From NCBI GenBank assembly GCA_015232555.1, contig JADFZJ010000001.1, forward strand, positions 62,001 to 126,000: a stretch of 64,000 nt of DNA, read 5' to 3'. Of this stretch, positions 26,852-37,185 are shown one piece after another. The DNA comes from Desulfamplus sp. Its GTDB lineage: Bacteria > Desulfobacterota > Desulfobacteria > Desulfobacterales > Desulfobacteraceae. A model generated the notes under the pieces. It saw only the letters and a list, made by a program, of their open reading frames with translations. It was not told the DNA's origin and made no database searches. Position 1 is the first letter of the stretch. Each line of letters begins with the position of its first letter. The position numbers and the translations under genes are program-made.

Positions 26852-26928
26852 GGTGGGTGTAGCTCAGTTGGCAGAGCACCAGGTTGTGGCCCTGGTGGTC
26901 GCGGGTTCAAGTCCCGTCACTCACCCCA
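26852..26928 (+). tRNA. tRNA-His (anticodon GTG)
   Basis: The cloverleaf is complete. The extra 5' G (-1, 26852) typical of tRNA-His pairs with C73. Acceptor GTGGGTG pairs with CACTCAC, with one G-T pair. D-arm is AGCTCAGTTGGCAGAGC. The anticodon stem CCAGG/CCTGG holds GTG at 26886-26888. The T-arm is GCGGGTTCAAGTCCCGT. CCA is encoded (26926-26928). The 3' half is overlapped on the other strand by the end of the giant helicase-nuclease gene (stop at 26907-26909). Confidence 0.97.
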
Positions 26929-29900
26929 TTTACACAAATATACACATTTCTTCTCTTGCAATACTCCAACAACTCCTTAAAGCAGCAATTCTTTTCAAGC
27001 ATTTTCTCATTATCAGGTATAAAATAAAAAAACGCCTTGCTGCCGACTATTATTAATTTTTGCCGTGCTCTAGTCATGGCAACATTTAGACGGTTCGGGC
27101 TGTTTAGAAACTCACTTGAAATATGATCAGGGTCAGATGAGGTTATACCAAATATCACCACATCACGCTCTGCACCTTGCACCCGCTCTACTGTATCGAC
27201 AAGTGGTAGACTCCTTTCAGGTTTTAGACTTAATTTGTCTTTATTTAAATTCTGATTTTTAAAATTATCATTTTGTGATGTAAAGTTTAAATCATTATCT
27301 TTTCCTGACATCATCATCTCACTCAATCGTCTGAGAATAGCGTTATTTTGTGCCCTATGTGGTGAAATTATGGCAATCTGTTCAGATTTAAGACCATGAT
27401 ATTCCATAAGTTCGTGTGCAATAGCAGCCATCAATTCAGCCTCCATATCGCACTGCTGAGAACATCCTTCATGCTCCATAATCACCATTACTACAGGCTT
27501 TGACGGATCAAGTATATCGTGAAAAGGTCTTTTAGAAATGTGATGCGAATTTATATTTAGACGTAAATCAGCATTGCCCAAAGCTGGATTGAGTCTCTCC
27601 TGATACCACATTTTACTGGGAAATTCACAAATCTCCCGATTCATGCGGTAAGTTACGTCAAGCGTTACCTGATGAGATTCAGGGTATAGTGTCATTAGCT
27701 TTGATAGAATCGAACTGTTTAGCTCACCATAATCACCAACAACAATCGGGGGCAGTTGATGCACATCTCCTAAAAAAAGAAAATTGCCTTTGCCGTATAT
27801 CAGCGTGAGAAGTGCCTGAGGTAAAAGCACCTGTGATGCTTCGTCAAAAATAATCCAGTCAAGAGCTTCTGGAAACTCACCGCTGCGGCTGTTGAAGAGA
27901 TTATAAAAACCAAATCCTGTAGCTCCGATAATTGTCCATGTTTTGCTTAAAACGTAGTCAGCATCATCAGACAATTCAACTTCTATGCCATTTTGTGCAG
28001 CAGTATTATCATTATCTGATATGTCGTATTTGTCCAATTCACCGTTATTATCACTTTTTCCCCATTTTATACATGAAGCAGGAAATGGATGCCCCGAAAA
28101 TTTTGACTCCTCAGAAAATTTAGATTTTTTTGGCAGCGGTAACCACTTATTTACAAGCGAAACTACCTTATTAAGAACATTGTCAATTGCCTGATGGGTC
28201 AAGGCACTTACGCCGATTCTCAAAGATATACCACGATCAAAGGCGTTCATCACAAGCATTATTAATATCCACGCAAGAAGATGGCTCTTTCCTGTGCCGG
28301 GTGGTCCTTGAATCAAAGATATTTTATAGCAAAAGGGTAGGGCAAGTGCTGCAATTTGTGAATCGTTAAGACCTGTGTTTGACAAGGTAATCTCTTGATT
28401 TAAAAAACTGATACCTTGATTTTTGCAGGTAATAAATTTTTGAATCCATTTGATTGATTCTTGATCCTGCTTATTTCCCCACATACCTGTAATAAGTTGA
28501 TTTGCAGGATTAAAAGGAGATTCTGAAAACAGAAATTCTGCCGCATGAGAAAGTTTTGCTTCTGTAAAATCAGTGATATCCTCTTCCAATGAGTAGAAAA
28601 GGGTTTTACTAAGATTGAGCCTGCCTGATCTTGATATGAGTGATACAGCTTCTTTATTATAATCTGAAATGATAACCGAGTAACCGTTTTGAATATCTTC
28701 CATACCATGATGAACCAGTTTCAAAAAATCACTTTTACGAAATTTTGAGGGCATTGTTTTGTCAGTAGTATTGAAAACATATAGCCCACGCCCTTGGTTA
28801 TCCATGCTGGTGTGGGTGAATATAAGATAACCTAAAGCCCTGAATTTCTCCATTCGTTCATGCAAAGGCAGCTCTTGAAGTTCAAGCGTATCTGTCTCTT
28901 TAAGCCGTTTTTCTTCACTTATAAACCGAAGAAAATCTGATTTTGACGGCATAGGATGTAACTCCATAGCCCTTATGGATTCTGATGATTCAATTTGAGA
29001 TGTTGTTATAAAAGGTCTATTAAAATCTTTGCCCCACTCATTAATCCATAGGCTTTCAAGAAGGGGTTTTACTTTTTTAAAAAGCTCTGCCATCGTAATC
29101 AGGATAGATTTAATCTCTGATTCCAATTTTGTTTTATCATAGTCGTAATAGTTGTGAAATAAACTTGATGGACGCTCAACCCCTTGATTGCACCCAAAAA
29201 TATGGGCAAGTGTAAAGAGAGATACACTTCCCGCCAAAGGCATGTAAAAGTGTTCCATGAATATCTTTTTAATATCACTACACATTGATAAATTTACATT
29301 GCTCAATGTTGTCCGTGAACCAAAATAGAAGATATGAGGACCTTTGCCACGCAATATATACGAATCCCACGCTTTTGATAAAATACTCCAAAATTCTGAA
29401 TTCTCTTCTTCCTTTTCCGTTAAATGGAAATGAGTTTTAACTACTTTAAAATGTTCATCAATAATCAGCAATCCAAAAGCCTTTGGAGTCTGTGAAATCG
29501 GAGATATTATGATATGAATGAAAAAATATGCAGATAGATTGGCTGGAAAGAGGCGTGTCGTTCTTTTATGGAGAATAATTCGATTGTTAATAATGGCATC
29601 GCATCTGCCAATCAGTTTTTTTTGTTCCCCTGATGAGAAAAGTTCGTTTAAATTTGAATGGATATCAGGGCTAATGAAGTCGGTATATATCAATCTCGAC
29701 GACCTCTCTTGAGAAGGAGATTGGGCAGGGGAGGGCGGCTTAAGATTATTATGAAGAGTTTCAATAGTTGAGATTCCCACTTTTCTCAGCTTTAACAGCT
29801 CGCCATCAGTTAATCCTGGTAAAAACTGGATATCCTCTTTTTCAAGAGCTTCAGAATAACAATGAGCAAACCAGTCGCATGATGTGCAGTGAGGTTTAAG

Positions 29901-36300: not shown

Positions 36301-36351
36301 CTATATTTTACCCTATTTTTATTACATTGTTTTGAGACTCTCCAATCATGA

Positions 36352-37185
36352 TTATATCTCAAAAGAGATACTGCTCATCTGTTTTGTTTCGCCGTTACTG
36401 TCAAGAAGCCAGAGAGCCTTGTTGCGTCCGCCTGTCAGATCAAGTCTGTAACCATCTGATGTTCCGCCAATATCTGACTCATAATAACGCCAAAGATCAA
36501 CCGAAAACTGGTCAATAGAGTATCCCTTGAATTTAGCTTTATCCATATTTAACAGAAATGTTTTGTTCTGGAGTGCTATGACATGTGCAACGTAAAAATC
36601 CTGTATAGGAAGTTTATCGCCGATATTCCCTTTATTTTGCTTTAACATCTCTTTGTAGGTGGAAAAGAGTGTGTCAATGAATTTTTGTGGATCATAAGGA
36701 GAGTCGTAGAGAAGCCGTTTTTGCTGCTGAATTGCCGTCACAATACGCCGAGGGTCAATTGATTTAAGTGCTTTTTTGTTGATGGTGGTTGTACGGGTTG
36801 CAAAGTCAAATTCCCCGCTGACTCCTTTTAGAGCAAAAAATCTGTTTGAGTCTATGGTTATCTCAAATCCAGCTTCTTTACAGAGCTGTGTCAAATCCTC
36901 TATAAACTCAAGCCTGTAGCTCTCAACTTTTTCGCTTGCATACACTTTTAAGGTGTCAAATGTGGCTGCACATTCTGCAAGTTTTTCATCTTCAATAATT
37001 TCTAAAGCTGTTTTTGTTCTAAGATGTTCGTCTAATTTTAAGAAGTCATCTTGAGAAGCAAATCTGATACACTGCTGAATAAATTCCGCTTTTTTCTGCT
37101 GCTGACTCAGCTCTTTTTGAAATGGCTGAACTGTTGCCTTTAGTTTTTCCTGAGCAGTCTCAAGAAGATTGTTATTCTCTGTCAT
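36352..37185 (-). CDS. Unknown protein, first gene of the ATPase/helicase operon
   Basis: A 277-residue soluble protein that I do not recognise. AGGA lies suitably upstream of the ATG. Residues ~8-60 are predicted helical and Gln/Lys/Glu-rich ([16 protein letters not shown]). A mixed alpha/beta middle contains [32 protein letters not shown] and [10 protein letters not shown]. The C-terminal half has [27 protein letters not shown]. No catalytic motif, Cys cluster or membrane segment is evident. It is separated from the first ATPase gene by only 51 bases, so it is probably a dedicated component, perhaps a recognition or adaptor subunit (inference). Confidence 0.7.

Follow-up and report, generated by a model that had tools for sequence, protein, structure and literature searches.

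The window analyzed here is the whole stretch of 64,000 nucleotides from Desulfamplus sp. (assembly GCA_015232555.1, contig JADFZJ010000001.1, positions 62,001 to 126,000 of the forward strand). In the list of its open reading frames (ORFs), four minus-strand genes lie close together and form an operon, with the transcription order P4, AT1, AT2, and HEL. P4 (36352–37185, 277 residues) is the first gene and its product has no match above cut-off in Pfam, NCBIfam, or PADLOC. AT1 (34900–36300, 466 residues) is a BrxD-type AAA+ ATPase and AT2 (33444–34889, 481 residues) a second, divergent one. HEL (26907–33440, 2177 residues) joins a superfamily 2 (SF2) helicase, a RecB-like nuclease, and a superfamily 1 (SF1) helicase in a single chain. 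With the earliest listed starts, the intergenic gaps are 51, 10, and 3 bases; with later ATG starts (AT2 at 34868; HEL at 33419, giving 2170 residues), the last two gaps become 31 and 24, the values of the original prediction, made from the sequence alone, and its tight spacing of the four genes is confirmed. The operon looks like an unrecognized relative of known virus-defense machines.

The four proteins

Both ATPases match the Pfam family BrxC_BrxD (E-values of 1.2e-60 for AT1 and 2.5e-25 for AT2). In PADLOC, a library of defense models only, AT1 matches BrxD (1.9e-47) and SngB (4.6e-35), and AT2 matches SngB (1.5e-14); the BrxD model scores higher than SngB. The two proteins stay under the NCBIfam equivalog cut-off for BrxD (72.6 and 156.4 vs. 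350 bits). Since each of them retains its Walker A and B motifs in 40 of 40 rows (39 loci and the window), AT1 and AT2 are probably both working ATPases.

In HEL, residues 28–613 (31602–33359, minus strand like the following segments) form a BrxHI/SngC/Lhr-like SF2 helicase (PADLOC BrxHI, 7.9e-78 and 260 bits, with the best stretch at 28–421; SngC, 2.3e-67, over 28–613). The closest solved relatives of this part, 5v9x and 7lhl, are titled "ATP-dependent DNA helicase" and we take them to be Lhr. The Pfam families DEAD and Helicase_C are matched in the N-terminal part, and AAA_11 and AAA_12 (2.1e-32 for the latter) in the C-terminal part. There, residues 1691–2165 (26946–28370) constitute a DNA2/Upf1-like SF1 helicase, with NAM7/Upf1 and DNA2 as solved relatives.

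Between the two motors, residues 949–1194 (29859–30596) contain a RecB-family nuclease with a four-cysteine pattern of the iron-staple type. The Pfam matches to Cas4/RecB-type nucleases are weak (near 1074–1194, E 0.005 and 0.015). Nevertheless, the four cysteines (C950, C1185, C1188, and C1194) each occur in 17 of 17 HEL rows, as does D1078; the other nuclease residues are kept in most of them (D1051 in 15, K1080 and Q1092 in 16, and Y1096 in 15). These rows include the window and leave out that of L114 (a wrong ORF); in another alignment, with the split and short forms of HEL, the columns are muddled, and the counts are not taken from it. The central region (residues 1195–1690; 28371–29858) is TM0106-like at its start. 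Residues 1026–1357 match NCBIfam TIGR03491, the profile of the TM0106-family RecB-like nucleases, below the curated cut-off (6.1e-11) and over part of the profile only; the RNase H-like part is apparently degenerate because its first-strand acidic residues are not conserved. In the natural variants L115 and L119, HEL is split after the nuclease. In the genome of L113, a nuclease–SF1 frame of 1219 residues borders the end of a different contig, which may cut it.

The relatives of P4 are 46%–79% identical among the 44 P4 loci described below. P4 belongs to no known family by matches above cut-off in Pfam, NCBIfam, PADLOC, or sequence searches of the PDB; a weak match is to ABC-3C MC2 (E 0.067). 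An AlphaFold model from 40 sequences has a pLDDT (predicted local distance difference test) of 90. In this model, residues 1–163 (36697–37185) form long helices that lead into a small beta sheet plus a helix, and residues 164–277 (36355–36696) a predicted winged-helix domain. Modeled alone, residues 141–277 give a winged helix again (pLDDT 84). The C-terminal domain is, weakly, most similar to chains of the origin recognition complex (ORC). With only that domain as query, Foldseek places a human ORC chain first (not significant), and with VIA-align chains from yeast or human ORC entries make up 16 of the first 17 rows (Z 4.7–6.2; root-mean-square deviation [rmsd] 3.1–4.9 over 78–90 residues). 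The absence of a fold from such VIA-align lists carries no weight, and Z values of this size can reflect a common arrangement. Chain A of the matched entries is presumably ORC1. The middle of P4 (about 88–161) has other weak matches, including frataxin, capping protein, and the DNA-binding domain of MotA.

The weak match to ORC is retained here because BrxD is independently classed, in PMC12839542, as an ORC-Cdc6 AAA+ ATPase (with an HEH insert and an arginine finger) and is proposed there to load BrxHI. P4 is thus possibly, from its predicted winged helix, the DNA-binding part of a loader. The role of sensor first suggested for this protein stays a suggestion.

Distribution and genomic setting

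Two P4 peptide patterns, run against 84,980 species genomes, give 44 loci. Most are from Desulfobacterota or from "Deltaproteobacteria" bins (which carry the label Myxococcota in the tree described below), with additional records titled Latescibacteria, Gemmatimonadota (grouping with the Latescibacteria-titled ones), and SAR324. Downstream from P4, AT1 is found in 43 of the 44 loci, AT2 in 39, and HEL in 27 (with the BrxHI part only in L109 and L113, and with several loci cut by contig ends). The gene order is more than chance, because it recurs in other genera and phyla; this is the recurrence across unrelated species that the original prediction called for. In sufficiently long loci, P4 and the second ATPase are constant, except for L102, which is without AT2.

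HEL is upstream of P4 in a single locus (L103) and not nearby in 16. Nine of these stop no more than 1 kb past AT2, or before that, and seven have more room (L071, L089, L090, L096, L097, L100, and L102). For six of the seven, and for L101, the genome has HEL elsewhere or further along; in the case of L071, HEL is present in G006, a genome sharing the same contig. Strong HEL matches occur in 13 of 14 chosen genomes with a P4 locus, including seven of the eight whose P4 locus showed none; the genome of L095 has no HEL match. On one contig of Electrothrix aarhusensis (L100:3736–10413, with L180), toxin–antitoxin and other genes lie between AT2 and a HEL that is in pieces: BrnTA, PIN, an Eco57I-type methylase, GmrSD_N, and a gene with a RelA/SpoT domain. 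The same gap contains PemK in one SAR324 locus and a nucleotidyltransferase in one Syntrophobacteraceae locus. In genomes similar to Eth-SRB1 (L178:5121–13792, L179, and L182), HEL is apart from P4–AT1–AT2 and adjoins a protein of 833 residues (in L178, a PIF1-like helicase that carries an HRDC domain).

Among 98 genomes (that of the window included), P4 is matched 24 times at 1e-3, strongly in 22 cases (E < 1e-80), and HEL 24 times at 1e-60. Both occur in 21 genomes, P4 only in one, HEL only in three, and neither in 73 (Fisher p 3e-17, kinship being ignored in this value). The exceptions are a short contig on the P4 side (G090) and, for HEL, broken pieces (G038), a contig beginning inside AT1 (G040), and a fragment (G056). 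Remnants or decay of the set are seen in G038 and G044. The occurrence is thus patchy, the pattern that the original prediction had proposed to test. In the phylum of the window, 16 of 395 genomes match the P4 profile, eight of them with the main form (E < 1e-100), the source genome counted in both; in the phylum of L104 (Latescibacteria by title), eight of 64 genomes match P4, one by a fragment and one weakly.

In a tree of P4, AT1, and AT2 together, the rows nearest to the window are from Desulfamplus and Desulfobacteraceae. The tree was made with a quick method and, with long outgroup branches, its root is unreliable. It contains a clade (SH-aLRT 99) of SAR324, Latescibacteria-type rows, and one Syntrophobacteraceae row, which may point to transfer.

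The operon occupies a synteny break between two conserved gene blocks (26498–37319 of the window). In two congeners that lack P4, G004 and G007, both flanking blocks are present, on different contigs. The flanks of the operon vary between genera, and some loci within one genus have neighbors in common. In complete genomes, the main form is found on contigs of 4.0 to 6.5 Mb. In the window, an alpha/beta-hydrolase gene on the same strand (37319–38509) precedes the operon. Among the ten neighbors scanned, the genes beyond the hydrolase are of HD/GAF, phosphoesterase, and MotA/MotB types, those 3′ of the operon are convergent (cytochrome, molybdopterin oxidoreductase, Fe-S, and NrfD proteins), and none is a recombinase. 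Promoter and terminator scans of the operon stay at chance level.

Related operons and known systems

Proteins similar to P4 head further operons with paired BrxD genes. In form (a), a P4-like protein and two BrxD proteins are followed by a short BrxHI-like helicase (L046, L122, L123, and L047, the helicase being cut by the contig end in the last). A type IIG-like methylase gene adjoins L046 (PADLOC, with the locus assigned by ORF comparison). Form (a) is also present on two plasmids. On the 27-kb plasmid pDESTI.01 of Desulfomonile tiedjei (L133:5185–15641, NC_018026.1), it lies about 3 kb from AbiEi/AbiEii, and the plasmid carries ParA and a tyrosine recombinase as well; the P4-like protein of this locus has no match in INPHARED. 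On the conjugative cyanobacterial plasmid AP018310.1 of Aulosira laxa (L132:1446–20971), it directly follows a BREX (bacteriophage exclusion) locus in which BrxC, PglX, PglZ, BrxD, and BrxHI are identified and which is of type 6 according to NCBIfam.

Form (b) consists of a P4-like protein, a BrxD-type protein, a BrxD, an unknown protein of 188 residues, and an SNF2 helicase fused to an Mrr nuclease (L126, L127 at 2087–7696, L129, and L172). In L127, the first BrxD-type protein is without a recognizable Walker A. Partial versions occur: in L174, only the SNF2 part of the fusion is matched; in L173, the first four genes are present, the fourth shortened, and the next 6.6 kb are free of SNF2; only the first three genes are matched in L175; and L176 contains broken pieces. 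No P4 of the SNF2 type is matched in the plasmid collection searched. In profile–profile comparisons, the main-form P4 matches that of form (a) with E 2e-14 and that of form (b) with E 5e-10, and the P4-like proteins of the two forms match each other weakly (E 0.003). Forms (a) and (b) thus keep the cassette of P4-like and BrxD genes at the head of the operon and differ in the motor that follows it. Form (b) constitutes a second uncharacterized paired-ATPase system.

The operon shares the BrxD–BrxHI dyad with type 2 and type 6 BREX (BrxC, PglX, PglZ, BrxD, and BrxHI) and differs by its extra ATPase, P4, and the nuclease. In the source assembly (3.8 Mb, 96% complete, 106 contigs), PglZ (PF08665) has no match, with the same search positive in 2 of 14 control genomes, and the only PF10923 matches are AT1 and AT2, which leaves no BrxC. 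The operon contains no PglX methyltransferase; the rest of the genome was not searched for it. An ordinary BREX locus with a displaced pglZ is thus rejected, and the pglZ that might have been expected just beyond the boundary is not found anywhere in the assembly.

It had also been stated that BrxD with an Lhr-like helicase always comes with PglZ. This does not hold, since Shango-like loci (TerB, ATPase, and DEAD helicase) are without PglZ in the annotated stretches. In Shango (the TerB protein SngA, the ATPase SngB, and the helicase SngC), which restricts phages in Pseudomonas aeruginosa according to PMC10250203, a BrxD/SngB-type ATPase adjoins a BrxHI/SngC-type helicase as in the operon. The operon, on the other hand, has no TerB protein, two ATPases, P4, and a helicase fused to a nuclease and an SF1 helicase. 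TerB has no match in 16 P4 rows nor in the other three proteins of the window, P4 has no profile similarity to two plasmid TerB proteins, and membership in Shango is rejected on these grounds.

The C-terminal half of HEL resembles Bad, a bacterial DNA2-like helicase–nuclease, in its layout, the only level compared. Bad is described in PMC7430649 as an Fe-S nuclease, a long central region, and an SF1B helicase. It is a motor that moves 5′–3′ on single strands and also an endonuclease; its role is given as unknown, and the authors considered a new class of restriction enzyme. In HEL, the four-cysteine RecB nuclease, the long central region, and the SF1 helicase follow the same order, with 640 residues from D1078 to the Walker lysine K1718, vs. 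665 from D150 to K815 in Bad (same source). Bad was studied as a separate protein, whereas the HEL version shares a chain with the BrxHI-like helicase ahead of it and is linked to the putative loader genes. Similarity to ORC/Cdc6 initiators is found in the AAA+ class of BrxD (as given in PMC12839542) and the Walker motifs, and may extend to the predicted winged helix of P4, with its weak match to ORC chains. Unlike in those initiators, the winged helix is a separate protein and the presumed client is a helicase–nuclease and not MCM. No description of the four-gene set was found in the literature searched, mostly titles and abstracts.

A proposed loader for exchangeable motors and its alternatives

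From the gene order, the conservation, the co-occurrence, the intact motifs, and the exchange of the effector motor in relatives, we infer a complex, an order of action, a target, and a role in defense. With about even confidence, we take the operon to be an ATP-driven DNA-interference machine, in which an ORC/Cdc6-like loader would place an exchangeable helicase–nuclease on foreign or aberrant DNA. This reading is favored by the recurrence of the operon across phyla, the co-occurrence of P4 and HEL, the intact motifs, the weak resemblance of the predicted P4 C-terminal domain to the ORC winged helix, the classing of BrxD with ORC-Cdc6, and the exchange of the motor. AT1 and AT2 would form a hetero-oligomeric AAA+ loader, to which P4 would provide in trans a winged helix such as ORC/Cdc6 proteins carry, recognizing or clamping DNA. 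The two ATPases would assemble on DNA with P4, and ATP binding would close the loader, which would then recruit and deliver HEL. The BrxHI-like SF2 motor would open the duplex; the fused nuclease and the DNA2-like SF1 motor would travel on and cut single strands, as purified Bad does. The targets would most likely be invading or abnormally replicating DNA.

Defense is plausible, and a likely role, because the parts are akin to defense models, relatives on plasmids lie near BREX-6 and AbiE genes, and form (b) has a restriction-type nuclease. The methylase gene beside L046 and the genes found between AT2 and HEL in the Electrothrix, SAR324, and Syntrophobacteraceae loci count on the same side. 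The system proposed at the outset, for defense or DNA processing, stands as a distinct and patchy set, present in many genera and in other phyla, that combines a motor–nuclease fusion with two different ATPases; its assignment to defense finds no support in the neighborhoods of the main form.

At 1e-10, the PADLOC matches cover 36 families in the set of 86 flank proteins and 46 in that of 86 control proteins, counted as families and not as proteins. The flanks are those of 32 chosen loci (at most four proteins each, the remote variants L046, L122, and L123 included), after removal of two P4-like operon proteins and two antisense ORFs from 90; the controls are 86 of 96 ORFs. These counts show no enrichment, and a defense-island location of the main form is rejected on this comparison. 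Single matches to SspH-like and pAgo-like models occur among the flank proteins. Other observations count, together with this comparison, against the proposed machine. The flank families in Pfam are mostly of transport and metabolism (25 of 111 families shown). AT1 has no match in INPHARED phages, and the main-form P4 has none in IMG/VR or in the plasmid collection. Unlike many defense proteins, AT1 evolves slowly: across the 40 rows, 123 of its 466 columns do not vary. The G+C content of the operon equals that of the window (0.375 vs. 0.374), so that a foreign base composition is not seen. No modification enzyme for self/non-self discrimination is present in the operon unit, and HEL is apart from AT2 in several genomes. 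As for the domains, D1051 is absent from two and K1080 from one of the 17 HEL rows, the SF2 part has its best NCBIfam match in TIGR04121, the model of a DNA-damage-response helicase (183 bits, 4.7e-54, under the cut-off), Foldseek with the P4 models gives nothing significant (best E 0.79 and 0.33), and the best alignment of the P4 C-terminal domain with ORC is weak (Z 6.2, rmsd 4.3 over 89 residues).

Part of this evidence would fit an accessory module for DNA repair or replication restart, with a loader that directs a resection-type helicase–nuclease to broken ends or stalled forks in the host chromosome and without any anti-invader role. The match to TIGR04121, the Lhr-type and DNA2 structures, the flanks without defense enrichment, the slow AT1, and the host-like G+C content all point that way. 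The set is nevertheless patchy (from 22 genomes for P4 to 24 for HEL, out of 98), shows remnants or decay in G038 and G044, and occupies different sites in different genera; BrxHI outscores the repair helicase model (260 vs. 183 bits), and relatives are plasmid-borne near BREX-6 and AbiE genes. We regard this alternative as unlikely, while giving it serious weight.

A divergent sub-type of Shango or BREX, having lost TerB or PglZ and kept the BrxD–BrxHI dyad, would account for the BrxD/SngB and BrxHI/SngC matches. It is improbable given the near-constant second ATPase and P4 (L102 being the exception noted), the lack of TerB in P4, and that of PglZ in the assembly. A unit that maintains a mobile element or licenses its replication, by means of ORC-like initiators and a helicase, is suggested by the relative whose plasmid carries ParA and a tyrosine recombinase and by the synteny break, and it is very improbable in view of the 4.0- to 6.5-Mb contigs carrying the main form, the ten neighbors without a recombinase, the absence of plasmid or IMG/VR matches, and the largely conserved nuclease residues.

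Returning to the loader for a destructive motor, we tentatively extend it to the whole family: P4 and the paired BrxD-type ATPases could together make up a split helicase loader of bacteria, similar to ORC/Cdc6, that is coupled to one or another of several exchangeable destructive motors (BrxHI-like alone, the BrxHI–Bad-like fusion, or SNF2–Mrr). In such a family of DNA-interference systems, free of PglZ and TerB, what is licensed would be a nuclease rather than a replisome. Both BREX and Shango have BrxD-type ATPases and BrxHI-type helicases. If the proposal is true, a compact set without PglZ or TerB, in which they are joined to an obvious nuclease and to a small protein with a winged helix, would allow the loading step to be studied by itself in vitro. 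The set would also place the bacterial DNA2-like helicase–nucleases (PMC7430649) in a functional context and would offer an example of a cassette exchanging its cutting motor.

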